Assembly (NCBI RefSeq): GCF_965363235.1
Contig: NC_134841.1
Location: forward strand, 56,627,078 to 56,691,077
Length of the DNA: 64,000 nt
DNA from: Mytilus galloprovincialis
Lineage: Eukaryota; Mollusca; Bivalvia; Mytilida; Mytilidae
Direction: 5' to 3'
Shown: positions 35,236-64,000 of the stretch, piece by piece
How the letters are laid out: each line of letters starts with the position of its first letter
Position numbering within the stretch: the stretch's first letter is position 1
Position numbers and translations under genes: made by a program
Notes under the pieces: model-generated
What the model was told of the DNA's origin: nothing
Databases searched by the model: none
What the model saw: only the letters and a program-made list of their open reading frames with translations

Positions 35236-35239
35236 CAAA

Positions 35240-36015
35240 CACAAAGTAATTAAATTATACATCTCATACCAATCACGTTTATATAGAAGTCTTCATTAAC
35301 GAACAAAGGTAAGTTTTACACTCGTGATGAGTTTAATTATTAATCCATGAAAGTGTTGATCCGTGTATAACCACCGTTCAAATGTCTCTAATCGGTCAAC
35401 AGTTTCAGACGAAAGACTGTTTGACTTTCTATTTTTTTGTTTCGAGTAGTGCACATGAAAACATTCCCTCGGAAGAAAAGGACGTTGATGGTACTACTAT
35501 AACAAATAGTAAGTTAACCTAAGGAAAACATATTTATGCTGTTAAGGATGTACTTAGGTGAGGTTTTTGGAATAAGTGTCAAATATTCGGACTCCTCGGT
35601 GTTTTTCATACGATACAATGTAAAATATTTTGCCCCATAACACCTATTTATCTTTTAACATAAGACTTTATAATTCATAAAAGGTCATTAAACATAATTT
35701 AATCAGATACTTGATTTTCTTTCTTTTGATTTGAGACCCAAATAATACCAATGCAAAATTAAGGTAAAAGCCCGAGTCAGCCTTTTCCCGCTATATTTTA
35801 TAAATCAAATATCTCGAAAAGAAGCTCCATGACCTATCAATATTTTTGGCTTAGTTTGATCCTTTTCCAATACTCTTCTAGCTTAAAGTATCAATTTTGA
35901 ATTCTTGATTTATTTCATTTTACCTTAGATCACCTAAGTACATCCTTAATTAATTGTTTTAGTATAACGAAGGGGATATTTCATTGGAACTAAAGTGATT
36001 GGAAATGTGAAGAGA
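35240..36015. repeat. 776-bp segment repeated at 43507-44312, copy 1
   Basis: Same orientation and high similarity to the later copy, which carries an extra 40 bases (TTGCGTAGGGTTCACCG...). Both contain the MITE below at the same relative place, so the MITE was there before duplication. Confidence 0.85.
35542..35949. mobile_element. 408-bp MITE with TTAA flanks
   Basis: The left end TTAAGGATGTACTTAGGTGA and the right end TCACCTAAGTACATCCTTAA are exact inverse complements over 20 bases. TTAA at both outer edges suggests a piggyBac-type target, an inference from the tetranucleotide only. Confidence 0.78.
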
Positions 36016-36701
36016 ACTTATCTGAAGATGTATAACAGCAAACGAGTATCCGAGTACTCGGCCCTTCGAGTACTCTAAATGTCATCCCTAGGCTACTAGT
36101 TACCGTATCAACTAGCCTGTTGTCAGAAAAAAAGTAAAATTACAACCTGAATTGTTTTGGCGATACATATTAAAATTTTCCTTGGCTTATAATGAACCCC
36201 AATGAAAACTGTTTGAATGAATACTTTATTGCAAAAAACATATATATGCTATAGCAACGAAAAACATATTTACAACATGACAAATGATAAACAGCAGAGA
36301 TTAATACATATAAATCATTATAAGAAAGCAAATAACATTAAGTAACAATATGTGATCTGATTGACCACGCAGATTTTATGTAGTTACACATTTTTTTAAT
36401 ATGTAAATCAGACTTTAATTTAAATAGATACTGTAATTAAGTAAGGTTTGGCCAAGAACAATAGAATTCTGGCAAATATATAGGCCTAATTGATCTATAG
36501 ACAGGGCATACTAATAAAAAGTGGTATTCGTTTTCAACACACTGCATATTACAACATTTGCATAAACGTAATTCTCTAGCCATGCTAGTAAATCTTCCTG
36601 TTTCAATGTTCAGTTTTAGTGTACCACTTCGCAATTTAGTTAAAAAGTGTGGATTATAACAGCAATATAAATAATGTTCAAACCTTAATTCTAACTTTAT
36701 G

Positions 36702-42705: not shown

Positions 42706-43105
42706 AAAAAATGCAATTACAAACGTTTAAGCATGTAGACAGACTTGTGAACATGTTGACAGACTGATTGACATGTAGACAGTCACACAGCTTGGTAAAC
42801 AAATAGATGGACTGATAGCCGTGTCGACAGACTGTTGGACATGAAGACAGAGCTAGTTAGACATATAGACCGACTGATAGCCATGTCGACAGACTGTTGG
42901 ACATGTAGACACAGCTTGGTAGACATATGACATATAAACCGACTGATAGTCATGTCGACGGACTGTTGGACATGTAGACACAGCTCGGTAGACATATAGA
43001 TCGACTGACAGTCGATTCGACAGACTGTTGGACATGAAGACACAGCTTGTTAGATATATAGACCGATATAGCCATGTCGACAGACTGTTGGTCATGAAGA
43101 CAGAC
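42706..43105. repeat. Minisatellite, unit about 62-66 bp
   Basis: Around six units of ATAGCCATGTCGACAGACTG, TTGGACATGTAGACACAGCT, TGGTAGACATATAGACCGACTG, with the left units more degenerate. Open frames on the - strand through it (repeats of CPTVCRHDYQS) are repeat by-products. Confidence 0.85.
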
Positions 43106-43506
43106 TAGTACCTTTTATAAACATATTAAGACAAATTTATTACAAACCGCATGATAGCTTAATTGCTCTTATGTTTTTTTTTGTGTCAATTAAACAATGA
43201 ATTATTATCGACCGCCGTTTCTACAATTAACCTATCATAATATCAATTATTGTTTGTTTACGTGTTCATGAACCCAGAGACATATATTACATAATATGAA
43301 TGAACAAAATTCCAATAAAATTAAAATTATTTGCATACAAAGTCCGACAAAGAAGACTACATGTTTATCATCTGTTACTGAGGAGTCGGTATTTTTTATA
43401 TAACGGCTTGTCCATTAATTTGTAAACAACAGTATTGAACTTCAAATTATTTGTGCTTTTTCGTGTCGCTCAGTCTAACTTTTTTCTGTGTTTTTTTTTT
43501 TTGTAC

Positions 43507-44312
43507 ACAGAGTAATTAAATTATACATCTCATACCAATCACGTTTATATAGAAGTCTTGATTAACGAACAACAGTAAGTTTTACACTCGTGATGAGTTA
43601 ATTATTAATCCATGAAAGTGTTGATCCGTGTATAACCACCGTTCAAATGTCTCTAATCAGTTGCGTAGGGTTCACCGTTTCTTATTAAGAAATATGATCT
43701 GGTCAACAGTTTCAGACGAAATACTGTTTGACTTTCTAGTTTTTGTTTGAAGTAGTGCACATGAAAACATTCACTCGGAAAAGAACGTTGATGGTACTTC
43801 TATAACAAATAGTAACCTAAGGAAAACATATTTATGTTGTTAAGGATAAACTTAGGTGAGGTTTTGGAATAAATGTCAAATGTTCGGACTCCTCGGTGTT
43901 TTTCATACGATACAATGTAAAATATTTTGCCCCATAACACCTATTTATCTTTTTACATAAGACTTAATAATTCATAAAATGTCATTTATCGAAATTTAAG
44001 CAGATTCTTGATTTTTTTTCTTTTGATTTGAGACCCAAATAATACCAATGCAAAATTTAGGTAAAGTCCGAGTCAGCCTTTTCCCGCCATATTTTATAAA
44101 TCAAATATCTCGAAAAGAAGCTCCATGACCTATCAATATTTTTAGCTTAGTTTGATCCTTTTCCAATACTCTTCCAGCTTAAAGTATCAATTTTGAATTC
44201 TTGATTTATTTAATTTTATCTTAGATCACCTAAGTACACCCTTAATTGTTTTTTTTTTAGTATAACGAAGGGGATATTTCATCTGAACTAAAGTGAGTGG
44301 AAATGTGAAGAG
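43507..44312. repeat. Second copy of the 776-bp segment
   Basis: Parallels 35240-36015 including the MITE (here 43840-44245, one end mutated to TTAAGGATAAACTTAGGTGA), with one 40-base insertion near 43662. Confidence 0.85.
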
Positions 44313-44394
44313 AAATATTCCTCGGTGAAAAGATTGGCTCATGCCATTTTTCCCCCCGGGGGAAAACTGGCAATAGGGGGGGGGGATGGTTATA

Positions 44395-44521
44395 TAACAC
44401 GGGTAGTTCAGTGGTTGTCGTTGGTTTGTGCCTGTCATATTTGTTTCGCGGAATTGTTTTGTTGTAAATAAGACCGTTTGTTTGCAAGTATGAATTATTT
44501 ACATTTTACATGTAGTTACCT
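44395..44521 (+). repeat. Retroelement-like sequence abutting the array
   Basis: ACACGGGTAGTTCAGTGGTTGTCGTT and the following words look like a diverged copy of the retroelement end at about 39110-39175 read in reverse. No exon with a good donor could be found here to feed the first array acceptor; GCAA|GTATGA at about 44486 is the best but has stops upstream. Confidence 0.4.
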
Positions 44522-44579
44522 TGTTTTCTGTTAAGGCCTTTGTGTAAGTCTAATGTCACCTTTTCTTTTTTTCTAGCAG

Positions 44580-44606
44580 GTCGCGACGCAGATTGAGGAA
44601 TTCCAG
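44580..44606 (+). CDS. First predicted mini-exon of the array (VATQIEEFQ)
   Basis: 27 nt between TTTTTTTCTAGCAG and GTATGT. Phase 0 gives VATQIEEFQ. The frame starting one base later is also open (SRRRLRNS), and the third is stopped by TGA. The TAG/CAG pair before it is a NAGNAG acceptor, so a 30-nt form with an extra Gln is possible. Its upstream intron has no recognised donor because the array begins within the intron. Whether it is translated is unknown. Confidence 0.5.
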
Positions 44607-44667
44607 GTATGTTTTCTGTTAAGGCCTTTGTGTATGTCTAATGTTGTCTTTTCTTTTTTTCTAGCAG
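44607..44667 (+). other. Standard 61-nt mini-intron (first complete one)
   Basis: Donor GTATGT, branch-like TCTAATG, polypyrimidine tract TTGTCTTTTCTTTTTTT, acceptor CTAGCAG. All signals of a minimal spliceosomal intron fit in 61 nt. Nearly every unit of the array repeats them. Confidence 0.75.
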
Positions 44668-44782
44668 GTCGCGACGCAGATTGAGGAATTCCAGGTATGT
44701 TTTCTGTTAAGACCTTTGTGTATGTCTAATGTTGTCTTTTCTTTTTTTCTGGCAGGGCTCGACGCAGATTGAGGAATTCCAG

Positions 44783-44870
44783 GTATGTTTTCTGTTAAGA
44801 CATTTGTGTATGTCTAATGGTTCTATTTTTTTTCCTTTAGGTCGTGTGGCCTTTTCTTTTTTATTTGCAG
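44783..44870 (+). other. Long-intron unit with an inner decoy acceptor
   Basis: This intron is 88 nt. After CTAATGG and a T tract ending CCTTTAG comes GTCGTGTGG, a relic resembling an exon start but with no donor, then a second T tract and TTTGCAG. Thirteen such units occur, at about 44820, 47910, 48640, 49720, 50450, 52665, 53395, 53860, 55115, 57680, 61665, 63095 and 63825, usually followed by a GATQIEDFQ exon. Confidence 0.8.
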
Positions 44871-44897
44871 GGCGCGACGCAGATTGAGGATTTTCAG
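44871..44897 (+). CDS. Mini-exon of the GATQIEDFQ type
   Basis: 27 nt after the long intron. GAGGATTTTCAG replaces GAGGAATTCCAG, giving E to D and a synonymous Phe codon in phase 0. Its acceptor is TTTGCAG, without the NAGNAG choice. Confidence 0.45.
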
Positions 44898-45223
44898 GTA
44901 TGTTTTCCGTTAAGACCTTTGTGTATGTCTAATGTCGCCTTTTCTTTTTTTCTAGCAGGTCGCGACGCAGATTGAGGAATTCCAGGTATGTTTTCCGTTA
45001 AGGCCTTTGTGTATGTCTAATGTCGCCTTTTCTTTTTTTCTAGTAGGTCGCGACGCAGATTGAGGAATTCCAGGTATGTTTTCTGTTAAGACCTTTGTGT
45101 ATGTCTAATGTTGTCTTTTCTTTTTTTCTAGCAGGTCGCGACACAGATTGAGGAATTCCAGGTATGTTTTCTGTTAAGACCTTTGTGTATGTCTAATGTT
45201 GTCTTTTCTTTTTTTCTGGCAAG

Positions 45224-45249
45224 GCGCGACGCAGATTGGAGATTCGCAG
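45224..45249 (+). pseudogene. Mini-exon with a shifted acceptor
   Basis: The usual GGCAG|GGCGCG has become GGCAAGGCGCG, which destroys the normal AG and moves the nearest AG one base downstream. If used, the exon is 26 nt and shifts the frame; otherwise it would be skipped. Confidence 0.6.
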
Positions 45250-45486
45250 GTATGTTTTCTGTTAAGGCCTTTGTGTATGTCTAATGTTGTCTTTTCTTTT
45301 TTTCTAGCAGGTCGCGACGCAGATTGAGGAATTCCAGGTATGTTTTCTGTTAAGACCTTTGTGTATGTCTAATGTTGTCTTTTCTTTTTTTCTAGCAGGT
45401 CGCGACGCAGATTGAGGAATTCCAGGTATGTTTTCTGTTAAGACCTTTGTGTATGTCTAATGTTGTCTTTTCTTTTTTTCTAGCAG

Positions 45487-45512
45487 GTCGCGTGCAGATT
45501 GAGGAATTCCAG
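45487..45512 (+). pseudogene. 26-nt frameshifting mini-exon
   Basis: GTCGCGTGCAG replaces GTCGCGACGCAG, one base short. Six units share this change (about 45487, 47496, 57090, 57530, 60457 and 60807), so the variant spread by duplication within the array. Inclusion moves the downstream frame by one. Confidence 0.7.
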
Positions 45513-45837
45513 GTATGTTTTCTGTTAAGACCTTTGTGTATGTCTAATGTTGTCTTTTCTTTTTTTCTAGCAGGTCGCGACGCAGATTGAGGAATTCCAG
45601 GTATGTTTTCTGTTAAGACCTTTGTGTATGTCTAATGTTGTCTTTTCTTTTTTTCTAGCAGGTCGCGACGCAGATTGAGGAATTCCAGGTATGTTTTCTG
45701 TTAAGACCTATGTGTATGTCTAATGTTGTCTTTTCTTTTTTTCTAGCAGGTCGCGACGCAGATTGAGGAATTCCAGGTATGTTTTCTGTTAAGACCTTTG
45801 TGTATGTCTAATGTTGTCTTTTCTTTTTTTCTAGCAG

Positions 45838-45864
45838 GTCGCGACGCAGATTGAGTAATTCCAG
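45838..45864 (+). pseudogene. Mini-exon with an in-frame TAA
   Basis: GAGGAA has become GAGTAA, a stop in phase 0 but not in the next frame (AGT AAT). Seven units carry it, including those at about 45950, 47250, 50960, 52010, 55710 and 60210. One further unit (about 48245) has TTATAG, also a phase-0 stop. Confidence 0.7.
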
Positions 45865-46392
45865 GTATGTTTTCTGTTAAGACCTTTGTGTATGTCTAAT
45901 GTTGTCTTTTCTTTTTTTCTAGCAGGTCGCGACGCAGATTGAGTAATTCCAGGTATGTTTTCTGTTAAGACCTTTGTGTATGTCTAATGTTGTCTTTTCT
46001 TTTTTTCTAGCAGGTCGCGACGCAGATTGAGGAATTCCAGGTATGTTTTCTGTTAAGACCTTTGTGTATGTCTAATGTTGTCTTTTCTTTTTTTCTAGCA
46101 GGTCGCCACGCAGATTGAGGAATTCCAGGTATGTTTTCTGTTAAGACCTTTGTGTATGTCTAATGTTGTCTTTTCTTTTTTTCTAGCAGGTCGCGACGCA
46201 GATTGAGGAATTCCAGGTATGTTTTCTGTTAAGACCTTTGTGTATGTCTAATGTTGTCTTTTCTTTTTTTCTAGCAGGTCGCGACGCAGATTGAGGAATT
46301 CCAGGTATGTTTTCTGTTAAGACCTTTGTGTATGTCTAATGTTGTCTTTTCTTTTTTTCTAGCAGGTCGCGACGCAGATTGAGGAATTCCAG

Positions 46393-46439
46393 GTATGTTT
46401 TCTGTATGTCTAATGTTGTCTTTTCTTTTTTTCTGGCAG
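46393..46439 (+). other. 47-nt mini-intron
   Basis: Fourteen bases between the donor and the branch-like site are missing (GTATGTTTTCTG joined to TATGTCTAATG), yet donor, CTAAT, T tract and acceptor remain. Similar units lie near 52025 and 56785. At 47 nt it is close to the lower limit for animal introns. Confidence 0.7.
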
Positions 46440-46466
46440 GGCGAGACGCAGATTGGAGATTCGCAG
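46440..46466 (+). CDS. Mini-exon of the GETQIGDSQ type
   Basis: 27 nt: GGCGAGACGCAG-ATTGGAGATTCGCAG. Relative to the main type it carries offsetting one-base insertions and deletions yet is still 27 nt and open in phase 0 (GETQIGDSQ). It is preceded by a CTGGCAG acceptor, which lacks the NAGNAG choice. Confidence 0.5.
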
Positions 46467-49400
46467 GTATGTTTTCTGTTAAGGCCTTTGTGTATGTCTA
46501 ATGTTGTCTTTTCTTTTTTTCTAGCAGGTCGCGACGCAGATTGAGGAATTCCAGGTATGTTTTCTGTTAAGACCTTTGTGTATGTCTAATGTTGTCTTTT
46601 CTTTTTTTCTAGCAGGTCGCGACGCAGATTGAGGAATTCCAGGTATGTTTTCTGTTAAGACCATTGTGTATGTCTAATGTTGTCTTTTCTTTTTTTCTGG
46701 CAGGGCGCGACGCAGATTGGAGATTCGCAGGTATGTTTTCTGTTAAGGCCTTTGTGTATGTCTAATGTTGTCTTTTCTTTTTTTCTGGCAGGGCGCGACG
46801 CAGACTGGAGATTCGCAGGTATGTTTTCTGTTAAGGCCTTTGTGTATGTCTAATGTTGTCTTTTCTTTTTTTCTAGCAGGTCGCGACGCAGATTGAGGAA
46901 TTCCAGGTATGTTTTCTGTTAAGACCTTTGTGTATGTCTAATGTTGTCTTTTCTTTTTTTCTAGCAGGTCGCGACGCAGATTGAGGAATTCCAGGTATGT
47001 TTTCTGTTAAGACCTTTGTGTATGTCTAATGTTGTCTTTTCTTTTTTTCTAGCAGGTCGCTACGCAGATTGAGGAATTCCAGGTATGTTTTCTGTTAAGA
47101 CCTTTGTGTATGTCTAATGTTGTCTTTTCTTTTTTTCTAGCAGGTCGCGACGCAGATTGAGGAATTCCAGGTATGTTTTCTGTTAAGACCTTTGTGTATG
47201 TCTAATGTTGTCTTTTCTTTTTTTCTAGCAGGTCGCGACGCAGATTGAGTAATTCCAGGTATGTTTTCTGTTAAGACCTTTGTGTATGTCTAATGTTGTC
47301 TTTTCTTTTTTTCTAGCAGGTCGCGACGCAGATTGAGGAATTCCAGGTATGTTTTCTGTTAAGAGCTTTGTGTATGTCTAATGTTGTCTTTTTTTTTTTC
47401 TAGCAGGTCGCGACGCAGATTGAGGAATTCCAGGCATGTTTTCTGTTAAGACCTTTGTGTATGTGTAATGTTGTCTTTTCTTTTTTTCTAGCAGGTCGCG
47501 TGCAGATTGAGGAATTCCAGGTATGTTTTCTGTTAAGGCCTTTGTGTATGTCTAATGTTGTCTTTTCTTTTTTTCTAGCAGGTCGCGACGCAGATTGAGG
47601 AATTCCAGGTATGTTTTCTGTTAAGACCTTTGTGTATGTCTAATGTTGTCTTTTCTTTTTTTCTAGCAGGTCGCGACGCAGATTGAGGAATTCCAGGTAT
47701 GTTTTCTGTTAAGACCTTTGTGTATGTCTAATGTTGTCTTTTCTTTTTTTCTAGCAGGTCGCGACGCAGATTGAGGAATTCCAGGTATGTTTTCTGTTAA
47801 GACCTTTGTGTATGTCTAATGTTGTCTTTTCTTTTTTTCTAGCAGGTCGCGACGCAGATTGAGGAATTCCAGGTATGTTTTCTGTTAAGACCTTTGTGTA
47901 TGTCTAATGGTTCTTTTTTTTTCCTTTAGGTCGTGTGGCCTTTTCTTTTTTTTTTGCAGGGCGCGACGCAGATTGAGGAATTCCAGGTATGTTTTCTGTT
48001 AAGACCTTTGTGTATGTCTAATGTTGTCTTTTCTTTTTTTCTAGCAGGTCGCGACGCAGATTGAGGAATTCCAGGTATGTTTTCTGTTAAGACCTTTGTG
48101 TATGTCTAATGTTGTCTTTTATTTTTTTCTAGCAGGTCGCGACGCAGATTAAGGAATTCCAGGTATGTTTTCTGTTAAGACCTTTGTGTATGTCTAATGT
48201 TGTCTTTTCTTTTTTTCTAGCAGGTCGCGACGCAGATTGAGGAATTATAGGTATGTTTTCTGTTAAGACCTTTGTGTATGTCTAATGTTGTCTTTTCTTT
48301 TTTTCTAGCAGGACGCGACGCAGATTGAGGAATTCCAGGTATGTTTTCTGTTAAGACCTTTGTGTATGTCTAATGTTGTCTTTTCTTTTTTTCTAGCAGG
48401 TCGCGACGCAGATTGAGGAATTCCAGGTATGTTTTCTGTTAAGACCTTTGTGTATGTCTAATGTTGTCTTTTCTTTTTTTCTAGCAGGTCGCGACGCAGA
48501 TTGAGGAATTCCAGGTATGTTTTCTGTTAAGACCTTTGTGTATGTCTAATGTTGTCTTTTCTTTTTTTCTAGCAGGTCGCGACGCAGATTGAGGAATTCC
48601 AGGTATGTTTTCTGTTAAGACCTTTGTGTATGTCTAATGGTTCTTTTTTTTTCCTTTAGGTCGTGTGGCCTTTTCTTTTTTTTTTGCAGGGCGCGACGCA
48701 GATTGAGGATTTTCAGGTATGTTTTCTGTTAAGACCTTTGTGTATGTCTAATGTCGCCTTTTCTTTTTTTCTAGCAGGTTGCGACGCAGATTGAGGAATT
48801 CCAGGTATGTTTTCTGTTAAGACCTTTGTGTATGTCTAATGTTGTCTTTTCTTTTTTTCTGGCAGGGCGCGACGCAGATTGGAGATTCGCAGGTATGTTT
48901 TCTGTTAAGGCCTTTGTGTATGTCTAATGTTGTCTTTTCTTTTTTTCTAGCAGGTCGCGACGCAGATTGAGGAATTCCAGGTATGTTTTCTGTTAAGACC
49001 TTTGTGTATGTCTAATGTTGTCTTTTCTTTTTTTCTAGCAGGTCGCGACGCAGATTGAGGAATTCCAGGTATGTTTTCTGTTAAGACCTTTGTGTATGTC
49101 TAATGTTGTCTTTTCTTTTTTTCTAGCAGGTCGCTACGCAGATTGAGGAATTCCAGGTATGTTTTCTGTTAAGACCTTTGTGTATGTCTAATGTTGTCTT
49201 TTCTTTTTTTCTAGCAGGGCGAGACGCAGATTGAGGAATTCCAGGTATGTTTTCTGTTAAAGCCTTTGTGTATGTCTAATGTTGTCTTTTCTTTTTTTCT
49301 AGCAGGTCGCGACGCAGATTGAGGAATTCCAGGTATGTTTTCTGTTAAGACCTTTGTGTATGTCTAATGTTGTCTTTTCTTTTTTTCTAGCAGGTCGCGA

Positions 49401-52400
49401 CGCAGATTGAGGAATTCCAGGTATGTTTTCTGTTAAGACCTTTGTGTATGTCTAATGTTGTCTTTTCTTTTTTTCTAGCAGGTCGCGACGCAGATTGAGG
49501 AATTCCAGGTATGTTTTCTGTTAAGACCTTTGTGTATGTCTAATGTTGTCTTTTCTTTTTTTCTAGCAGGTCGCGACGCAGATTGAGGAATTCCAGGTAT
49601 GTTTTCTGTTAAGACCTTTGTGTATGTCTAATGTTGTCTTTTCTTTTTTTCTAGCAGGTCGCGACGCAGATTGAGGAATTCCAGGTATGTTTTCTGTTAA
49701 GACCTTTGTGTATGTCTAATGGTTCTTTTTTTTTCCTTTAGGTCGTGTGGCCTTTTCTTTTTTTTTTGCAGGGCGCGACGCAGATTGAGGATTTTCAGGT
49801 ATGTTTTCTGTTAAGACCTTTGTGTATGTCTAATGTCGCCTTTTCTTTTTTTCTAGCAGGTCGCGACGCAGATTGAGGAATTCCAGGTATGTTTTCTGTT
49901 AAGACCTTTGTGTATGTCTAATGTTGTCTTTTCTTTTTTTCTGGCAGGGCGCGACGCAGATTGGAGATTCGCAGGTATGTTTTCTGTTAAGGCCTTTGTG
50001 TATGTCTAATGTCGCCTTTTCTTTTTTTCTAGCAGGTCGCGACGCAGATTGAGGAATTCCAGGTATGTTTTCTGTTAAGACCTTTGTGTATGTCTAATGT
50101 TGTCTTTTCTTTTTTTCTAGCAGGTCGCGACGCAGATTGAGGAATTCCAGGTATGTTTTCTGTTAAGACCTTTGTGTATGTCTAATGTTGTCTTTTCTTT
50201 TTTTCTGGCAGGGCGAGACGCAGATTGGAGATTCGCAGGTATGTTTTCTGTTAAGGCCTTTGTGTATGTCTAATGTTGTCTTTTCTTTTTTTCTAGCAGG
50301 TCGCGACGCAGATTGAGGAATTCCAGGTATGTTTTCTGTTAAGACCTTTGTGTATGTCTAATGTTGTCTTTTCTTTTTTTCTAGCAGGTCGCGACGCAGA
50401 TTGAGGAATTCCAGGTATGTTTTCTGTTAAGACCTTTGTGTATGTCTAATGGTTCTTTTTTTTTCCTTTAGGTCGTGTGGCCTTTTCTTTTTTTTTTGCA
50501 GGGCGCGACGCAGATTGAGGATTTTCAGGTATGTTTTCTGTTAAGACCTTTGTGTATGTCTAATGTCGCCTTTTCTTTTTTTCTAGCAGGTCGCGACGCA
50601 GATTGAGGAATTCCAGGTATGTTTTCTGTTAAGACCTTTGTGTATGTCTAATGTTGTCTTTTCTTTTTTTCTGGCAGGGCGAGACGCAGATTGGAGATTC
50701 GCAGGTATGTTTTCTGTTAAGACCTTTGTGTATGTCTAATGTTGTCTTTTCTTTTTTTCTGGCAGGGCGAGACGCAGATTGGAGATTCGCAGGTATGTTT
50801 TCTGTTAAGGCCTTTGTGTATGTCTAATGTTGTCTTTTCTTTTTTTCTAGCAGGTCGCGACGCAGATTGAGGAATTCCAGGTATGTTTTCTGTTAAGACC
50901 TTTGTGTATGTCTAATGTTGTCTTTTCTTTTTTTCTAGCAGGTCGCGACGCAGATTGAGTAATTCCAGGTATGTTTTCTGTTAAGACCTTTGTGTATGTC
51001 TAATGTTGTCTTTTCTTTTTTTCTAGCAGGTCGCGACGCAGATTGAGGAATTCCAGGTATGTTTTCTGTTAAGACCTTTGTGTATGTCTAATGTTGTCTT
51101 TTCTTTTTTTCTAGCAGGTCGCGACGCAGATTGAGGAATTCCAAGTATGTTTTCTGTTAAGACCTTTGTGTATGTCTAATGTTGTCTTTTCTTTTTTTCT
51201 AGCAGGTCGCGACGCAGATTGAGGAATTCCAGGTATGTTTTCTGTTAAGACCTTTGTGTATGTCTAATGTTGTCTTTTCTTTTTTTCTAGCAGGTCGCGA
51301 CGCAGATTGAGGAATTCCAGGTATGTTTTCTGTTAAGACCTTTGTGTATGTCTAATGTTGTCTTTTCTTTTTTTCTAGCAGGTCGCGACGCAGATTGAGG
51401 AATTCCAGGTATGTTTTCTGTTAAGACCTTTGTGTATGTCTAATGTTGTCTTTTCTTTTTTTCTAGCAGGTCGCGACGCAGATTGAGGAATTCCAGGTAT
51501 GTTTTCTGTTAAGACCTTTGTGTATGTCTAATGTTGTCTTTTCTTTTTTTCTAGCAGGTCGCGACGCAGATTGAGGAATTCCAGGTATGTTTTCTGTTAA
51601 GACCTTTGTGTATGTCTAATGTTGTCTTTTCTTTTTTTCTGGCAGGGCGAGACGCAGATTGGAGATTCGCAGGTATGTTTTCTGTTAAGGCCTTTGTGTA
51701 TGTCTAATGTTGTCTTTTCTTTTTTTCTAGCAGGTCGCGACGCAGATTGAGGAATTCCAGGTATGTTTTCTGTTAAGACCTTTGTGTATGTCTAATGTTG
51801 TCTTTTCTTTTTTTCTAGCAGGTCGCGACGCAGATTGAGGAATTCCAGGTATGTTTTCTGTTAAGACCTTTGTGTATGTCTAATGTTGTCTTTTCTTTTT
51901 TTCTAGCAGGTCGCGACGCAGATTGAGGAATTCCAGGTATGTTTTCTGTTAAGACCTTTGTGTATGTCTAATGTTGTCTTTTCTTTTTTTCTAGCAGGTC
52001 GCGACGCAGATTGAGTAATTCCAGGTATGTTTTCTGTATGTCTAATGTTGTCTTTTCTTTTTTTCTGGCAGGGCGAGACGCAGATTGGAGATTCGCAGGT
52101 ATGTTTTCTGTTAAGGCCTTTGTGTATGTCTAATGTTGTCTTTTCTTTTTTTCTAGCAGGTCGCGACGCAGATTGAGGAATTCCAGGTATGTTTTCTGTT
52201 AAGACCTTTGTGTATGTCTAATGTTGTCTTTTCTTTTTTTCTAGCAGGTCGCGACGCAGATTGAGGAATTCCAGGTATGTTTTCTGTTAAGACCATTGTG
52301 TATGTCTAATGTTGTCTTTTCTTTTTTTCTGGCAGGGCGCGACGCAGATTGGAGATTCGCAGGTATGTTTTCTGTTAAGGCCTTTGTGTATGTCTAATGT

Positions 52401-55400
52401 TGTCTTTTCTTTTTTTCTGGCAGGGCGCGACGCAGATTGGAGATTCGCAGGTATGTTTTCTGTTAAGGCCTTTGTGTATGTCTAATGTTGTCTTTTCTTT
52501 TTTTCTAGCAGGTCGCGACGCAGATTGAGGAATTCCTAGTATGTTTTCTGTTAAGACCTTTGTGTATGTCTAATGTTGTCTTTTCTTTTTTTCTAGCAGG
52601 TCGCGACGCAGATCGAGGAATTCCAGGTATGTTTTCTGTTAAGACCTTTGTGTATGTCTAATGGTTCTTTTTTTTTCCTTTAGGTCGTGTGGCCTTTTCT
52701 TTTTTTTTTGCAGGGCGCGACGCAGATTGAGGATTTTCAGGTATGTTTTCTGTTAAGACCTTTGTGTATGTCTAATGTCGCCTTTTCTTTTTTTCTAGCA
52801 GGTTGCGACGCAGATTGAGGAATTCCAGGTATGTTTTCTGTTAAGACCTTTGTGTATGTCTAATGTTGTCTTTTCTTTTTTTCTGGCAGGGCGCGACGCA
52901 GATTGGAGATTCGCAGGTATGTTTTCTGTTAAGGCCTTTGTGTATGTCTAATGTCGCCTTTTCTTTTTTTCTAGCAGGTCGCGACGCAGATTGAGGAATT
53001 CCAGGTATGTTTTCTGTTAAGACCTTTGTGTATGTCTAATGTTGTCTTTTCTTTTTTTCTAGCAGGTCGCGACGCAGATTGAGGAATTCCAGGTATGTTT
53101 TCTGTTAAGACCTTTGTGTATGTCTAATGTTGTCTTTTCTTTTTTTCTGGCAGGGCGAGACGCAGATTGGAGATTCGCAGGTATGTTTTCTGTTAAGGCC
53201 TTTGTGTATGTCTAATGTTGTCTTTTCTTTTTTTCTAGCAGGTTGCGACGCAGATTGAGGAATTCCAGGTATGTTTTCTGTTAAGACCTTTGTGTATGTC
53301 TAATGTTGTCTTTTCTTTTTTTCTAGCAGGTCGCGATGCAGATTGAGGAATTCCAGGTATGTTTTCTGTTAAGACCTTTGTGTATGTCTAATGGTTCTTT
53401 TTTTTTCCTTTAGGTCGTGTGGCCTTTTCTTTTTTTTTTGCAGGGCGCGACGCAGATTGAGGATTTTCAGGTATGTTTTCTGTTAAGACCTTTGTGTATG
53501 TCTAATGTCGCCTTTTCTTTTTTTCTAGCAGGTCGCGACGCAGATTGAGGAATTCCAGGTATGTTTTCTGTTAAGACCTTTGTGTATGTCTAATGTTGTC
53601 TTTTCTTTTTTTCTGGCAGGGCGCGACGCAGATTGGAGATTCGCAGGTATGTTTTCTGTTAAGGCCTTTGTGTATGTCTAATGTCGCCTTTTCTTTTTTT
53701 CTAGCAGGTCGCGACGCAGATTGAGGAATTCCAGGTATGTTTTCTGTTAAGACCTTTGTGTAAGTCTAATGTTGTCTTTTCTTTTTTTCTAGCAGGTCGC
53801 GACGCAGATCGAGGAATTCCAGGTATGTTTTCTGTTAAGACCTTTGTGTATGTCTAATAGTTCTTTTTTTTTCCTTTAGGTCGTGTGGCCTTTTCTTTTT
53901 TTTTGCAGGGCGCGACGCAGATTGAGGATTTTCAGGTATGTTTTCTGTTAAGACCTTTGTGTATGTCTAATGTCGCCTTTTCTTTTTTTCTAGCAGGTTG
54001 CGACGCAGATTGAGGAATTCCAGGTATGTTTTCTGTTAAGACCTTTGTGTATGTCTAATGTTGTCTTTTCTTTTTTTCTGGCAGGGCGCGACGCAGATTG
54101 GAGATTCGCAGGTATGTTTTCTGTTAAGGCCTTTGTGTATGTCTAATGTCGCCTTTTCTTTTTTTCTAGCAGGTCGCGACGCAGATTGAGGAATTCCAGG
54201 TATGTTTTCTGTTAAGACCTTTGTGTATGTCTAATGTTGTCTTTTCTTTTTTTCTAGCAGGTCGCGACGCAGATTGAGGAATTCCAGGTATGTTTTCTGT
54301 TAAGACCTTTGTGTATGTCTAATGTTGTCTTTTCTTTTTTTCTGGCAGGGCGAGACGCAGATTGGAGATTCGCAGGTATGTTTTCTGTTAAGACCTTTGT
54401 GTATGTCTAATGTTGTCTTTTCTTTTTTTCTAGCAGGTCGCGACGCAGATTGAGGAATTCCAGGTATGTTTTCTGTTAAGACCTTTGTGTATGTCTAATG
54501 TTGTCTTTTCTTTTTTTCTAGCAGGTCGCGACGCAGATTGAGGAATTCCAGGTATGTTTTCTGTTAAGACCTTTGTGTATGTCTAATGTTGTCTTTTCTT
54601 TTTTTCTAGCAGGTCGCGACGCAGATTGAGGAATTCCAGGTATGTTTTCTGTTAAGACCTTTGTGTATGTCTAATGTTGTCTTTTCTTTTTTTCTAGCAG
54701 GTCGCGACGCAGATTGAGGAATTCCAGGTATGTTTTCTGTTAAGACCTTTGTGTATGTCTAATGTTGTCTTTTCTTTTTTTCTAGCAGGTCGCGACGCAG
54801 ATTGAGGAATTCCAGGTATGTTTTCTGTTAAGACCTTTGTGTATGTCTAATGTTGTCTTTTCTTTTTTTCTGGCAGGGCGAGACGCAGATTGGAGATTCG
54901 CAGGTATGTTTTCTGTTAAGGCCTTTGTGTATGTCTAATGTTGTCTTTTCTTTTTTTCTAGCAGGTCGCGACGCAGATTGAGGAATTCCAGGTATGTTTT
55001 CTGTTAAGACCTTTGTGTATGTCTAATGTTGTCTTTTCTTTTTTTCTAGCAGGTCGCGACGCAGATTGAGGAATTCCAGGTATGTTTTCTGTTAAGACCT
55101 TTGTGTATGTCTAATGGTTCTTTTTTTTTCCTTTAGGTCGTGTGGCCTTTTCTTTTTTTTTTGCAGGGCGCGACGCAGATTGAGGATTTTCAGGTATGTT
55201 TTCTGTTAAGACCTTTGTGTATGTCTAATGTCGCCTTTTCTTTTTTTCTAGCAGGTCGCGACGCAGATTGAGGAATTCCAGGTATGTTTTCTGTTAAGAC
55301 CTTTGTGTATGTCTAATGTTGTCTTTTCTTTTTTTCTGGCAGGGCGAGACGCAGATTGGAGATTCGCAGGTATGTTTTCTGTTAAGACCTTTGTGTATGT

Positions 55401-58400
55401 CTAATGTTGTCTTTTCTTTTTTTCTGGCAGGGCGAGACGCAGATTGGAGATTCGCAGGTATGTTTTCTGTTAAGGCCTTTGTGTATGTCTAATGTTGTCT
55501 TTTCTTTTTTTCTAGCAGGTCGCGACGCAGATTGAGGAATTCCAGGTATGTTTTCTGTTAAGACCTTTGTGTATGTCTAATGTTGTCTTTTCTTTTTTTC
55601 TAGCAGGTCGCGACGCAGATTGAGGAATTCCAGGTATGTTTTCTGTTAAGACCTTTGTGTATGTCTAATGTTGTCTTTTCTTTTTTTCTAGCAGGTCGCG
55701 ACGCAGATTGAGTAATGCCAGGTATGTTTTCTGTTAAGACCTTTGTGTATGTCTAATGTTGTCTTTTCTTTTTTTCTAGCAGGTCGCGACGCAGATTGAG
55801 GAATTCCAGGTATGTTTTCTGTTAAGACCTTTGTGTATGTCTAATGTTGTCTTTTCTTTTTTTCTAGCAGGTCGCGACGCAGATTGAGGAATTCCAGGTA
55901 TGTTTTCTGTTAAGACCTTTGTGTATGTCTAATGTTGTCTTTTCTTTTTTTCTAGCAGGTCGCGACGCAGATTGAGGAATTCCAGGTATGTTTTCTGTTA
56001 AGACCTTTGTGTATGTCTAATGTTGTCTTTTCTTTTTTTCTAGCAGGTCGCGACGCAGATTGAGGAATTCCAGGTATGTTTTCTGTTAAGACCTTTGTGT
56101 ATGTCTAATGTTGTCTTTTCTTTTTTTCTAGCAGGTCGCGACGCAGATTGAGGAATTCCAGGTATGTTTTCTGTTAAGACCTTTGTGTATGTCTAATGTT
56201 GTCTTTTCTTTTTTTCTAGCAGGTCGCGACGCAGATTGAGGAATTCCAGGTATGTTTTCTGTTAAGACCTTTGTGTATGTCTAATGTTGTCTTTTCTTTT
56301 TTTCTGGCAGGTCGCGACGCAGATTGAGGAATTCCAGGTATGTTTTCTGTTAAGACCTTTGTGTATGTCTAATGTTGTCTTTTCTTTTTTTCTGGCAGGG
56401 CGAGACGCAGATTGGAGATTCGCAGGTATGTTTTCTGTTAAGGCCTTTGTGTATGTCTAATGTTGTCTTTTCTTTTTTTCTAGCAGGTCGCGACGCAGAT
56501 TGAGGAATTCCAGGTATGTTTTCTGTTAAGACCTTTGTGTATGTCTAATGTTGTCTTTTCTTTTTTTCTAGCAGGTCGCGACGCAGATTGAGGAATTCCA
56601 GGTATGTTTTCTGTTAAGACCTTTGTGTATGTCTAATGTTGTCTTTTCTTTTTTTCTAGCAGGTCGCGACGCAGATTGAGGAATTCCAGGTATGTTTTCT
56701 GTTAAGACCTTTGTGTATGTCTAATGTTGTCTTTTCTTTTTTTCTAGCAGGTCGCGACGCAGATTGAGGAATTCCAGGTATGTTTTCTGTATGTCTAATG
56801 TTGTCTTTTCTTTTTTTCTGGCAGGGCGAGACGCAGATTGGAGATTCACAGGTATGTTTTCTGTTAAGGCCTTTGTGTATGTCTAATGTTGTCTTTTCTT
56901 TTTTTCTAGCAGGTCGCGACGCAGATTGAGGAATTCCAGGTATGTTTTCTGTTAAGACCTTTGTGTATGTCTAATGTTGTCTTTTCTTTTTTTCTAGCAG
57001 GTCGCGACGCAGATTGAGGAATTCCAGGTATGTTTTCTGTTAAGACCTTTGTGTATGTCTAATGTTGTCTTTTCTTTTTTTCTAGCAGGTCGCGTGCAGA
57101 TTGAGGAATTCCAGGTATGTTTTCTGTTAAGGCCTTTGTGTATGTCTAATGTTGTCTTTTCTTTTTTTCTAGCAGGTCGCGACGCAGATTGAGGAATTCC
57201 AGGTATGTTTTCTGTTAAGACCTTTGTGTATGTCTAATGTTGTCTTTTCTTTTTTTCTAGCAGGTCGCGACGCAGATTGAGGAATTCCAGGTATGTTTTC
57301 TGTTAAGACCTTTGTGTATGTCTAATGTTGTCTTTTCTTTTTTTCTAGCAGGTCGCGACGCAGATTGAGGAATTCCAGGTATGTTTTCTGTTAAGACCTT
57401 TGTGTATGTCTAATGTTGTCTTTTCTTTTTTTCTAGCAGGTCGCGACGCAGATTGAGGAATTCCAGGTATGTTTTCTGTTAAGACCTTTGTGTATGTCTA
57501 ATGTTGTCTTTTCTTTTTTTCTAGCAGGTCGCGTGCAGATTGAGGAATTCCAGGTATGTTTTCTGTTAAGGCCTTTGTGTATGTCTAATGTTGTCTTTTC
57601 TTTTTTTCTAGCAGGTCGCGACGCAGATTGAGGAATTCCAGGTATGTTTTCTGTTAAGACCTTTGTGTATGTCTAATGGTTCTTTTTTTTTCCTTTAGGT
57701 CGTGTGGCCTTTTTTTTTTTTTTTTGCAGGGCGCGACGCAGATTGAGGATTTTCAGGTATGTTTTCTGTTAAGACCTTTGTGTATGTCTAATGTCGCCTT
57801 TTCTTTTTTTCTAGCAGGTTGCGACGCAGATTGAGGAATTCCAGGTATGTTTTCTGTTAAGACCTTTGTGTATGTCTAATGTTGTCTTTTCTTTTTTTCT
57901 GGCAGGGCGCGACGCAGATTGGAGATTCGCAGGTATGTTTTCTGTTAAGGCCTTTGTGTATGTCTAATGTCGCCTTTTCTTTTTTTCTAGCAGGTCGCGA
58001 CGCAGATTGAGGAATTCCAGGTATGTTTTCTGTTAAGACCTTTGTGTATGTCTAATGTTGTCTTTTCTTTTTTTCTAGCAGGTCGCGACGCAGATTGAGG
58101 AATTCCAGGTATGTTTTCTGTTAAGACCTTTGTGTATGTCTAATGTTGTTTTTTCTTTTTTTCTGGCAGGGCGAGACGCAGATTGGAGATTCGCAGGTAT
58201 GTTTTCTGTTAAGGCCTTTGTGTCTGTCTAATGTTGTCTTTTCTTTTTTTCTAGCAGGTCGCGACGCAGATTGAGGAATTCCAGGTATGTTTTCTGTTAA
58301 GACCTTTGTGTATGTCTAATGTTGTCTTTTCTTTTTTTCTAGCAGGTCGCGACGCAGATTGAGGAATTCCAGGTATGTTTTCTGTTAAGACCTTTGTGTA

Positions 58401-61400
58401 TGTCTAATGTTGTCTTTTCTTTTTTTCTAGCAGGTCGCGACGCAGATTGAGGAATTCCAGGTATGTTTTCTGTTAAGACCTTTGTGTATGTCTAATGTTG
58501 TCTTTTCTTTTTTTCTAGCAGGTCGCGACGCAGATTGAGGAATTCCAGGTATGTTTTCTGTTAAGACCTTTGTGTATGTCTAATGTTGTCTTTTCTTTTT
58601 TTCTAGCAGGTCGCGACGCAGATTGAGGAATTCCAGGTATGTTTTCTGTTAAGACCTTTGTGTATGTCTAATGTTGTCTTTTCTTTTTTTCTGGCAGGGC
58701 GAGACGCAGATTGGAGATTCGCAGGTATGTTTTCTGTTAAGGCCTTTGTGTATGTCTAATGTTGTCTTTTCTTTTTTTCTAGCAGGTTGCGACGCAGATT
58801 GAGGAATTCCAGGTATGTTTTCTGTTAAGACCTTTGTGTATGTCTAATGTTGTCTTTTCTTTTTTTCTAGCAGGTCGCGACGCAGATTGAGGAATTCCAG
58901 GTATGTTGTCTCTTAAGACCTTTGTGTATGTCTAATGTTGTCTTTTCTTTTTTTCTAGCAGGTCGCGACGCAGATTGAGGAATTCCAGGTATGTTTTCTG
59001 TTAAGACCATTGTGTATGTCTAATGTTGTCTTTTCTTTTTTTCTGGCAGGGCGCGACGCAGATTGGAGATTCGCAGGTATGTTTTCTGTTAAGGCCTTTG
59101 TGTATGTCTAATGTTGTCTTTTCTTTTTTTCTGGCAGGGCGCGACGCAGATTGGAGATTCGCAGGTATGTTTTCTGTTAAGGCCTTTGTGTATGTCTAAT
59201 GTTGTCTTTTCTTTTTTTCTAGCAGGTCGCGACGCAGATTGAGGAATTCCAGGTATGTTTTCTGTTAAGACCTTTGTGTATGTCTAATGTTGTCTTTTCT
59301 TTTTTTCTAGCAGGTCGCGACGCAGATTGAGGAATTCCAGGTATGTTTTCTGTTAAGACCTTTGTGTATGTCTAATGTTGTCTTTTCTTTTTTTCTAGCA
59401 GGTCGCTACGCAGATTGAGGAATTCCAGGTATGTTTTCTGTTAAGACCTTTGTGTATGTCTAATGTTGTCTTTTCTTTTTTTCTAGCAGGTCGCGACGCA
59501 GATTGAGGAATTCCAGGTATGTTTTCTGTTAAGACCTTTGTGTATGTCTAATGTTGTCTTTTCTTTTTTTCTAGCAGGTCGCGACGCAGATTGAGGAATT
59601 CCAGGTATGTTTTCTGTTAAGACCATTGTGTATGTCTAATGTTGTCTTTTCTTTTTTTCTGGCAGGGCGCGACGCAGATTGGAGATTCGCAGGTATGTTT
59701 TCTGTTAAGGCCTTTGTGTATGTCTAATGTTGTCTTTTCTTTTTTTCTGGCAGGGCGCGACGCAGATTGGAGATTCGCAGGTATGTTTTCTGTTAAGGCC
59801 TTTGTGTATGTCTAATGTTGTCTTTTCTTTTTTTCTAGCAGGTCGCGACGCAGATTGAGGAATTCCAGGTATGTTTTCTGTTAAGACCTTTGTGTATGTC
59901 TAATGTTGTCTTTTCTTTTTTTCTAGCAGGTCGCGACGCAGATTGAGGAATTCCAGGTATGTTTTCTGTTAAGACCTTTGTGTATGTCTAATGTTGTCTT
60001 TTCTTTTTTTCTAGCAGGTCGCTACGCAGATTGAGGAATTCCAGGTATGTTTTCTGTTAAGACCTTTGTGTATGTCTAATGTTGTCTTTTCTTTTTTTCT
60101 AGCAGGTCGCGACGCAGATTGAGGAATTCCAGGTATGTTTTCTGTTAAGACCTTTGTGTATGTCTAATGTTGTCTTTTCTTTTTTTCTAGCAGGTCGCGA
60201 CGCAGATTGAGTAATTCCAGGTATGTTTTCTGTTAAGACCTTTGTGTATGTCTAATGTTGTCTTTTCTTTTTTTCTAGCAGGTCGCGACGCAGATTGAGG
60301 AATTCCAGGTATGTTTTCTGTTAAGAGCTTTGTGTATGTCTAATGTTGTCTTTTTTTTTTCTAGCAGGTCGCGACGCAGATTGAGGAATTCCAGGTATGT
60401 TTTCTTTTAAGACCTTTGTGTATGTCTAATGTTGTCTTTTCTTTTTTTCTAGCAGGTCGCGTGCAGATTGAGGAATTCCAGGTATGTTTTCTGTTAAGGC
60501 CTTTGTGTATGTCTAATGTTGTCTTTTCTTTTTTTCTAGCAGGTCGCGACGCAGATTGAGGAATTCCAGGTATGTTTTCTGTTAAGACCTTTGTGTATGT
60601 CTAATGTTGTCTTTTCTTTTTTTCTAGCAGGTCGCGACGCAGATTGAGGAATTCCAGGTATGTTTTCTGTTAAGACCTTTGTGTATGTCTAATGTTGTCT
60701 TTTCTTTTTTTCTAGCAGGTCGCGACGCAGATTGAGGAATTCCAGGTATGTTTTCTGTTAAGACCTTTGTGTATGTCTAATGTTGTCTTTTCTTTTTTTC
60801 TAGCAGGTCGCGTGCAGATTGAGGAATTCCAGGTATGTTTTCTGTTAAGGCCTTTGTGTATGTCTAATGTTGTCTTTTCTTTTTTTCTAGCAGGTCGCGA
60901 CGCAGATTGAGGAATTCCAGGTATGTTTTCTGTTAAGACCTTTGTGTATGTCTAATGTTGTCTTTTCTTTTTTTCTAGCAGGTCGCGACGCAGATTGAGG
61001 AATTCCAGGTATGTTTTCTGTTAAGAACTTTGTGTATGTCTAATGTTGTCTTTTCTTTTTTTCTAGCAGGTCGCGACGCAGATTGAGGAATTCCAGGTAT
61101 GTTTTCTGTTAAGACCTTTGTGTATGTCTAATGTTGTCTTTTCTTTTTTTCTAGCAGGTCGCGACGCAGATTGAGGAATTCCAGGTATGTTTTCTGTTAA
61201 GACCTTTGTGTATGTCTAATGTTGTCTTTTCTTTTTTTCTAGCAGGTCGCGACGCAGATTGAGGAATTCCAGGTATGTTTTCTGTTAAGACCTTTGTGTA
61301 TGTCTAATGTTGTCTTTTCTTTTTTTCTAGCAGGTCGCGACGCAGATTGAGGAATTCCAGGTATGTTTTCTGTTAAGACCTTTGTGTATGTCTAATGTTG

Positions 61401-64000
61401 TCTTTTCTTTTTTTCTGGCAGGGCGAGACGCAGATTGGAGATTCGCAGGTATGTTTTCTGTTAAGGCCTTTGTGTATGTCTAATGTTGTCTTTTCTTTTT
61501 TTCTAGCAGGTTGCGACGCAGATTGAGGAATTCCAGGTATGTTTTCTGTTAAGACCTTTGTGTATGTCTAATGTTGTCTTTTCTTTTTTTCTAGCAGGTC
61601 GCGACGCAGATTGAGGAATTCCAGGTATGTTTTCTGTTAAGACCTTTGTGTATGTCTAATGGTTCTTTTTTTTTCCTTTAGGTCGTGTGGCCTTTTCTTT
61701 TTTTTTTGCAGGGCGCGACGCAGATTGAGGATTTTCAGGTATGTTTTCTGTTAAGACCTTTGTGTATGTCTAATGTCGCCTTTTCTTTTTTTCTAGCAGG
61801 TTGCGACGCAGATTGAGGAATTCCAGGTATGTTTTCTGTTAAGACCTTTGTGTATGTCTAATGTTGTCTTTTCTTTTTTTCTGGCAGGGCGCGACGCAGA
61901 TTGGAGATTCACAGGTATGTTTTCTGTTAAGGCCTTTGTGTATGTCTAATGTCTCCTTTCCTTTTTTTCTAGCAGGTCGCGACGCAGATTGAGGAATTCC
62001 AGGTATGTTTTCTGTTAAGACCTTTGTGTATGTCTAATGTTGTCTTTTCTTTTTTTCTAGCAGGTCGCGACGCAGATTGAGGAATTCCAGGTATGTTTTC
62101 TGTTAAGACCTTTGTGTATGTCTAATGTTGTTTTTTCTTTTTTTCTGGCAGGGCGAGACGCAGATTGGAGATTCGCAGGTATGTTTTCTGTTAAGGCCTT
62201 TGTGTATGTCTAATGTTGTCTTTTCTTTTTTTCTAGCAGGTCGCGACGCAGATTGAGGAATTCCAGGTATGTTTTCTGTTAAGACCTTTGTGTATGTCTA
62301 ATGTTGTCTTTTCTTTTTTTCTAGCAGGTCGCGACGCAGATTGAGGAATTCCAGGTATGTTTTCTGTTAAGACCTTTGTGTATGTCTAATGTTGTCTTTT
62401 CTTTTTTTCTAGCAGGTCGCGACGCAGATTGAGGAATTCCAGGTATGTTTTCTGTTAAGACCTTTGTGTATGTCTAATGTTGTCTTTTCTTTTTTTCTGG
62501 CAGGGCGAGACGCAGATTGGAGATTCGCAGGTATGTTTTCTGTTAAGGCCTTTGTGTATGTCTAATGTTGTCTTTTCTTTTTTTCTAGCAGGTTGCGATG
62601 CAGATTGAGGAATTCCAGGTATGTTTTCTGTTAAGACCTTTGTGTATGTCTAATGTTGTCTTTTCTTTTTTTCTAGCAGGTCGCGACACAGATTGAGGAA
62701 TTCCAGGTATGTTTTCTGTTAAGACCTTTGTGTATGTCTAATGTTGTCTTTTCTTTTTTTCTAGCAGGACGCGACGCAGATTGAGGAATTCCAGGTATGT
62801 TTTCTGTTAAGACCTTTGTGTATGTCTAATGTTGTCTTTTCTTTTTTTCTAGCAGGTCGCGACGCAGATTGAGGAATTCCAGGTATGTTTTCTGTTAAGA
62901 CCTTTGTGTATGTCTAATGTTGTCTTTTCTTTTTTTCTAGCAGGTCGCGACGCAGATTGAGGAATTCCAGGTATGTTTTCTGTTAAGACCTTTGTGTATG
63001 TCTAATGTTGTCTTTTCTTTTTTTCTAGCAGGTCGCGACGCAGATCGAGGAATTCCAGGTATGTTTTCTGTTAAGACCTTTGTGTATGTCTAATAGTTCT
63101 TTTTTTTTCCTTTAGGTCGTGTGGCCTTTTCTTTTTTTTTGCAGGGCGCGACGCAGATTGAGGATTTTCAGGTATGTTTTCTGTTAAGACCTTTGTGTAT
63201 GTCTAATGTCGCCTTTTCTTTTTTTCTAGCAGGTTGCGACGCAGATTGAGGAATTCCAGGTATGTTTTCTGTTAAGACATTTGTGTATGTCTAATGTTGT
63301 CTTTTCTTTTTTTCTGGCAGGGCGCGACGCAGATTGGAGATTCGCAGGTATGTTTTCTGTTAAGGCCTTTGTGTATGTCTAATGTCGCCTTTTCTTTTTT
63401 TCTAGCAGGTCGCGACGCAGATTGAGGAATTCCAGGTATGTTTTCTGTTAAGACCTTTGTGTATGTCTAATGTTGTCTTTTCTTTTTTTCTAGCAGGTCG
63501 CGACGCAGATTGAGGAATTCCAGGTATGTTTTCTGTTAAGACCTTTGTGTATGTCTAATGTTGTCTTTTCTTTTTTTCTGGCAGGGCGAGACGCAGATTG
63601 GAGATTCGCAGGTATGTTTTCTGTTAAGACCTTTGTGTATGTCTAATGTTGTCTTTTCTTTTTTTCTAGCAGGTCGCGACGCAGATTGAGGAATTCCAGG
63701 TATGTTTTCTGTTAAGACCTTTGTGTATGTCTAATGTTGTCTTTTCTTTTTTTCTAGCAGGTCGCGACGCAGATTGAGGAATTCCAGGTATGTTTTCTGT
63801 TAAGACCTTTGTGTATGTCTAATGGTTCTTTTTTTTTCCTTTAGGTCTTGTGGCCTTTTCTTTTTTTTTTGCAGGGCGCGACGCAGATTGAGGATTTTCA
63901 GGTATGTTTTCTGTTAAGACCTTTGTGTATGTCTAATGTCGCCTTTTCTTTTTTTCTAGCAGGTCGCGACGCAGATTGAGGAATTCCAGGTATGTTTTCT

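Follow-up and report, generated by a model that had tools for sequence, protein, structure and literature searches.

A likely satellite family of the mussel Mytilus galloprovincialis whose 88-bp monomer resembles a mini-exon with its mini-intron

Short-unit tandem arrays and very small exons arranged in series are both described from animals. Among bivalves, oysters contain satellite-like arrays that are carried by mobile elements, as set out for Cg_HINE (PMC7492417). Schistosome micro-exon genes have known transcripts and proteins; all of their products are said to carry a signal peptide, and the genes appear to be restricted to flatworms (PMC4350168). Here we describe a tandem array of 88-bp units in the mussel Mytilus galloprovincialis, in which each unit has the predicted anatomy of a 27-nt mini-exon and a 61-nt mini-intron. 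The array, called W below, occupies positions 44522..64000 (+) of a 64,000-nucleotide stretch of DNA (the window, C4:56627078-56691077). The genome comprises 1.38 Gb in 331 contigs. It contains the Myticin-prepro family, which is typical of mussels (all 17 matches listed lie above the cut-off, against none in 14 control genomes), and this supports a Mytilus-type mussel as the source. We consider it likely that W belongs to an apparently chromosome-specific satellite family whose monomer arose from an exon-intron unit, a reading that the initial annotation of the window had offered as one of two, and that is supported by the pattern of copying, by sister arrays, and by the lack of detected constraint.

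The mussel arrays share several features with these systems. Like the oyster arrays, they consist of short units in tandem, in blocks dispersed with shared flanks in a bivalve host; unlike them, the mussel unit is a complete mini-exon and mini-intron with splice signals, is seen on one chromosome, and has no element ends that we could find (PMC7492417). The schistosome genes have very small symmetrical exons in series, and the mussel arrays have 27-nt exon-like units in series whose coding role is at most putative; the mussel arrays contain hundreds of near-identical units and show no signal-peptide exon in the flanks read (PMC4350168). Exonised transposable elements, for example Alu, are likewise repeats with usable splice sites that are not themselves genes; unlike Alu, the mussel units stand in tandem rather than dispersed singly, and their splice competence is a prediction. 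The unit of the coding repeat system compared here reportedly holds both exons and introns. That system also has a tandem unit with variable copy number, and the mussel array differs from it in its 88-bp unit, its hundreds of copies and the absence of a gene context in what was read (PMC11462820). Among titles and the opening lines of abstracts, no comparable mussel array is described; this negative is weak, as subscription papers lie mostly outside the coverage.

Within the window, array W contains 218 splice donors between positions 44607 and 63990, in agreement with the initial estimate of about 218 mini-exons with mini-introns. It had also been anticipated that the array would run on beyond the window and be larger than it appeared. 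It does, and it ends at ∼88,075 in window numbering (∼C4:56715152), with 489 donors in all (the last at 88026), 488 complete units and a length of ∼43.5 kb. The unit consists of a 61-nt intron-like part (GTATGT...CAG) and a 27-nt exon-like part. Most complete units are 88 bp long (432 of 488), while the 56 others range from 74 to 115 bp: 23 are 87 bp, 22 are 113–115 bp, six are 74 bp, and the remaining five are 86, 89 or 96 bp. The array starts with a left-truncated unit lacking a donor (44522..44579, +), which begins within the intron-like part against the flank. The first 27-nt exon-like element, GTCGCGACGCAGATTGAGGAATTCCAG (44580..44606, +), follows and reads VATQIEEFQ in frame 0 and SRRRLRNSR in frame 1. 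The first long unit (115 bp, 44783..44897, +) has CCTTTAG followed by GTCGTGTGG within its intron part, and this sequence is what is left of another type of exon (type B, see below). A 26-nt frameshift exon, GTCGCGTGCAGATTGAGGAATTCCAG, first occurs at 45487..45512 (+) and has 18 copies in the array. An assembly error in the length of the array is conceivable. Sister arrays speak against a pure artefact, since they carry different consensus sequences.

The claim that every splice signal is present in every unit is accurate for nearly all of them, with a few broken. Of the 488 units, 483 have an unaltered GTATGT, 485 contain TCTAAT, and 482 have an exon that ends in CAG; AG directly precedes all 489 exons, of which 470 are 27 nt and 19 are 26 nt long. 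Four of the 488 units share a copied ATATGT variant of the donor. The combined arrangement of donor, branch site, pyrimidine tract and acceptor is rare by chance: under criteria that were chosen after the unit had been seen, it turned up in 7 of 20,000 dinucleotide-shuffled versions of the unit and in 19 of 200,000 random 88-mers. It is not found when the unit is read in reverse complement. Because this layout is so improbable, we infer that the monomer probably derives from a real exon-intron unit. A satellite that came to resemble such a unit by pure chance is unlikely in our judgement. A mussel genome may hold many satellite families, in which case a frequency of 1 in 3,000 to 1 in 10,000 per unit is not negligible, and the lack of detectable constraint on the unit suits this explanation too; against it stand the rarity of the layout in shuffles and a second exon type with the same 27-nt length and layout, although the two types look homologous and are hence not independent.

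Units were found at ten further places, all on C4 between 36.5 and 97.2 Mb, giving 11 loci with W. On the plus strand lie array D (36.53 Mb), array C (54.017–54.029 Mb), an array ending at 57.880 Mb of which only the right end was seen, and array G (57.998–58.013 Mb). The minus strand carries array B (53.284–53.313 Mb), array E (54.513–54.538 Mb), array F (∼58.21 Mb), array H (59.935–59.949 Mb), an array at 79.625–79.631 Mb, and array I (∼97.24 Mb), so that five arrays including W are in plus orientation and six in minus. Extended sequence was read for W and C and for most of B, with a total of ∼880 complete units. Evidence for D, E, F, G, H and I consists of 1–2-kb samples together with search matches, and the 57.88- and 79.6-Mb arrays are represented by search matches and at most a short end; the arrays in both sets are presumed continuous. 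The exon pattern with up to two mismatches matched 692 places (463 + 229), all on C4 among the matches listed, and its reversed control matched none. The type B pattern matched 11 places genome-wide, likewise all on C4 (11/11). The family is therefore apparently chromosome-specific, in the sense that it is seen on C4 only and that none of the A-type matches listed lies elsewhere. The initial annotation had named the occurrence of the unit at many unrelated loci, together with an absence of spliced reads, as evidence that would count against its proposal. The unit does occur at 11 loci at least, but all those seen are on C4 and ten have a shared flank close by, and for these reasons we regard the loci as related.

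The arrays bear clear marks of recent copying. One sequence accounts for 195 of the 488 units of array W, and there are 70 distinct unit sequences in all. Mean pairwise identity among 88-bp units is 95.9% in W, 97.4% in B and 98.3% in C, and the consensus of W differs from the consensus of B and C. Perfect internal duplications extend over up to 31 units (2,777 bp) in W, 15 units in B and 11 units in C, and a broken frame has been copied as well, in the form of the 26-nt exon with its 18 copies. We interpret this to mean that each array probably grew through internal duplication and exchange. Long head-to-tail homogenised arrays, a unit seen at 11 loci, and no detected selection on a product are all properties of a satellite.

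Site variation was counted in 88-bp units only (432 from W, 215 from B and 103 from C). Splice-critical positions show 10 kinds of change at 36 sites, against 42 at 99 other intron sites (P 0.14, uncontrolled); with base composition and CpG context controlled, the same 10 changes compare with 12.2 expected (P 0.26). Exon sites gave 51 changes against 49.3 expected under the same control. Raw counts had pointed to extra variability in the exon (30 changes at 27 sites for positions 1–9). Under CpG and base control, the exon as a whole is not more variable than the intron. Strong selection on each unit is thus unlikely. Selection that is weak, or that acts on the entire array, may be compatible with these data, in which the power to detect weak selection is low. 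The argument that an ordinary satellite has no reason to keep its splice signals does not hold here: the whole unit is kept because the units are recent copies, and splice-critical sites vary about as much as other sites once base and CpG are controlled.

A different account of the same anatomy is a family of working genes, each with hundreds of mini-exons whose splicing would yield long proteins built from nine-residue repeats (of the type GATQIEDSQ). The length of such proteins would vary by exon number or alternative splicing, and W would represent a member that has decayed or that is alternatively spliced. We consider this distinctly unlikely. The consensus exon of W is open in frames 0 and 1 and contains a stop in frame 2. 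It had been noted that the exon is open in two frames, and frame 0 is indeed open in 458 of the 469 27-nt exons in complete units, frame 1 in 465 of them. Frame-0 stops in 11 of all 470 27-nt exons (TAA in nine of them), together with the 26-nt frameshift form, mean that the two open frames fail along the array as a whole. When all 489 exons are spliced in silico, the three frames contain 133, 143 and 137 stops, the first after 94, 76 and 4 codons, respectively. The reading frame, whose maintenance we took as the mark of a coding array, is not kept through W.

Nor do the exon changes carry a coding signature in any frame. We compared 70 distinct 27-nt exons from nine arrays (all read units of W, B and C, and sampled units of D, E, F, G, H and I), which yielded 54 one-step changes, and scored them against a null that preserves base and CpG class. 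Only exons with an AG exactly 27 nt before the donor entered the comparison, and 16 forms, the commonest included, with no commoner form one step away were not counted. Frame 0 shows no signature (16 synonymous changes, 17.2 expected; 36 replacements, 34.5 expected; 2 stops, 2.1 expected). Frame 1 is not significant (14 synonymous, 10.9 expected; 37 replacements, 37.0 expected; 3 stops, 6.0 expected, P 0.09), and neither is frame 2 (22 synonymous, 18.3 expected; 29 replacements, 32.6 expected; 1 stop, 1.1 expected; 2 stop losses, 2.0 expected). With its early stops and no coding signature, array W gives no support to the earlier suggestion that transcripts encode nine-residue-repeat proteins. 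A six-frame reading of the shared flank, judged by eye, revealed no convincing coding exon, nor could a first exon be made out in the flanking sequence that was read. Hand-made repeat peptides matched no Pfam family above the cut-off (best PG_1098_N, 19.5 bits versus 23.6) and gave no convincing match in the PDB: a spindle/axial fibril protein ranked first (E 5.8e-5), with none of its stretches passing individually, and the remaining rows were importin alpha (E 0.36–0.45). We take these matches for repeat noise.

Splicing of the array is possible, and its products would be recognisable. The exon–exon join TTCCAG-GTCGCGACG of the W type had been put forward as diagnostic of splicing, and it is absent from the 164 kb of genomic sequence read; the corresponding join for arrays B and C is TTCCCAG-GGCGCGACG. 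A spliced retrocopy of the A–A join, which would have favoured the gene family, was not found in the 1.38-Gb genome with up to three mismatches allowed.

Several observations weigh against the satellite reading, and some of them speak for genes. Besides the rarity of the splice layout and its presence in nearly all units, the arrays B and C are better kept than W. Of the exons read in B, 271 of 274 are 27 nt long, and these are open in frame 0 in 271 of 271 and in frame 1 in 268 of 271; in C, the figures are 120 of 121, 119 of 120 and 120 of 120. When all exons are joined, frame 0 runs for 1,658 codons before it meets a stop in the portion of B that was read (20 stops in all), and no stop occurs in the 1,088 codons of C, the latter only by way of one 26-nt exon that changes the frame. 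Even in spliced W, the longest open stretches of the three frames reach 709, 532 and 844 codons. Splice-critical and pyrimidine sites together are mildly depleted of changes when uncontrolled (24 at 84 sites versus 42 at 99, P 0.075), a difference that becomes 24 versus 26.2 expected (P 0.32) with base and CpG controlled. Furthermore, one unit among hundreds in a working array could be nearly free of selection, and a neutral pattern is for that reason compatible with expression.

The second exon type adds to these points. Type B is likewise 27 nt long (e.g., GTCGTGTGGCCTATGGGACATTTGCAG, frame 0 VVWPMGHLQ) and is found where arrays D and E start and where B, G, H and the 79.6-Mb array end. It is identical to the common type A at 17 of 27 positions (P 0.0005 by shuffling), and the two exons therefore look related. 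Introns beside type B match at 35 of their first 41 bases, so that the exons have diverged more than the introns (P 0.043, uncorrected). This greater divergence could come from past selection on the exons, and a type B exon of exactly 27 nt with frame 0 open suits descent from a real mini-exon. Remnants of type B also lie within the intron part of long units, in 21 of 22 such units in W (GTCGTGTGGCC) and in arrays B, C, E, G and H; the exact remnant pattern is not listed for array D. These remnants point to an older A–B dimer that may later have been swamped by A units. In one form of the gene hypothesis, a gene of alternating 27-nt A and B exons would have given rise to at least 11 giant mini-exon genes on C4. 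Exon number would have grown to hundreds, protein length would vary between alleles and by splicing, the better-kept B and C would be spliced to repeat proteins, and W would be degenerate. We give this form no better chance than the gene family in general.

The arrays share upstream sequence. Directly before W lies flank part 2 (44313..44521, +), pieces of which are also found upstream of B, C, F, G, H, I and the 79.6-Mb array, and before it flank part 1 (43505..44318, +), whose main pieces are 90–99% identical upstream of the C4 sister arrays. The flank (43505-44521) has 48 matching pieces in the genome. The middle of part 1 (∼43840-44247) is a dispersed repeat, further copies of part 1 occur elsewhere on C4, and longer ones lie on C1, C3, C8 and C10. 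A copy of the flank stands upstream in the same orientation within ∼6 kb at 10 of the 11 arrays; for the 57.880-Mb array, the nearest upstream copy among the matches listed is ∼25 kb away. B, F, G, H and I have one common left junction, with the flanks of F, G and H ∼99% and that of I 98% identical to the flank of B, and C and E have another (96% identical). Before array B, the flank of W continues ∼860 bases further until the array begins. Ten arrays with a flank close upstream might be expected of a gene family. The flank, in the same orientation as the arrays, could also hold a promoter from which they are transcribed as non-coding RNA, with the introns removed to leave repeat or circular RNA without protein. 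The splice layout fits this idea, which we regard as very unlikely: much of the flank consists of dispersed-repeat matches, and no constraint on splice sites was detected, a result that also counts against genes. These judgements overlap, as a satellite may also be transcribed, and their probabilities need not sum to one.

Right ends are available from W, C, B, G, H and the 79.6-Mb array, and they differ between groups. Both ends of W and C and the left end of E fall within the intron-like part, while the left ends of the B group and the right ends of B, G and H fall within the exon-like part. W adjoins a repeat present on many chromosomes, and a further stretch of 284 bp on this side is 98% identical to C4:36545967-36546248, ∼3 kb past the last array-D exon among the matches listed. 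Array G breaks off after 15 bases of an exon, where a different dispersed repeat takes over, H and B end as G does in the alignment, and the 57.88-Mb array is 99% identical to G there; the right end of the 79.6-Mb array is unlike the others. As the repeat truncates G, H, B and the 57.88-Mb array at the same place, these four probably descend from one truncated copy. Array ends that lie in either part of the unit, and in several cases meet dispersed repeats, accord with a satellite, as do the upstream flank and left junction that arrays have in common.

Two apparent gene boundaries were examined and rejected. At the right ends of G, H and B, a last exon seemed to read GASQIEDI, GTSQIEDI and GVSQIKDI in frame 0, followed by TAA and then AATAAA. 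In G, the sequence from exon base 16 onward is the dispersed repeat, copies of which, 93–95% identical, end arrays G, H, B and that at 57.88 Mb and occur on many chromosomes; the stop and AATAAA were therefore brought by the repeat, and the gene family loses its terminal exon. The start of the B group, GCAATTCATTTGCAG before the first donor, was considered as a gene start; it looks like flank fused to the end of a type B unit.

Shared left flanks, 11 loci and both orientations could also reflect transport, with the arrays as the central repeats of a mobile element of the Helentron type that moves them. Published oyster arrays carried by such elements offer a precedent (PMC7492417). We nevertheless think this quite improbable, given that every copy seen is on one chromosome and that ends common to the copies on both sides were not found, the left flank being shared and the right ends read differing between W, C, B/G/H and 79.6 Mb. 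No element ends were identified, in an analysis without a dedicated search for Helentron ends.

Under the satellite reading, the most likely beginning is the tandem duplication of one short exon-intron unit, or of two related units, A and B, forming a pair. Successive rounds of duplication and unequal exchange would have enlarged the array. Copies of the locus, upstream flank included, would then have been placed elsewhere on the chromosome, each array presumably becoming homogenised on its own. Splice signals would persist through the copying of whole units rather than through selection on each.

The surroundings of W contain other features. A partner copy of flank part 1, 88% identical and with no array behind it, lies ∼8 kb upstream (35239..36016, +). 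Flank elements are paired ∼8–14 kb apart at several array loci, with one copy ∼88–89% and the other 93–99% identical to the window copy; such pairs on C4 are at 53.314/53.328, 54.006/54.015, 57.986/57.995, 59.950/59.962 and 97.238/97.247 Mb. A 62-bp minisatellite (42785..43109, +) belongs to an upstream block common to W and array C. Two of nine window open reading frames match reverse transcriptase (Pfam RVT_1) and the other seven match nothing in Pfam; the fragments are at 3176-4321 (+) and 38178-38945 (-). A 117–123-bp tandem repeat of ∼3 to 5 copies, in two overlapping rows, occupies 14945-15501. One near-identical open frame (KIFSRESQRHKQTVIVYLNDYNLNQVFDRKRRDVSDVGSV...) occurs twice, at 8395-8802 (-), a copy with no Pfam match, and at 22941-23327 (+). 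Beyond the window, at 140261-148123 in its numbering, an open reading frame listing contains long frames that by eye resemble a long terminal repeat (LTR) retroelement. Neither Rfam matches nor tRNAs were found in the window.

If the arrays are only a satellite, they would still form a natural library of splice-competent-looking mini-exon units that differ by single bases, with ∼880 complete units in the sequence read from W, B and C and more beyond it. Such a library may be used to study how the spliceosome handles 27-nt exons and 61-nt introns at high density and, should the arrays be transcribed, how they are tolerated. If the arrays are expressed, they would constitute a run of near-identical mini-exons longer than any known to us and a new route to repeat proteins.

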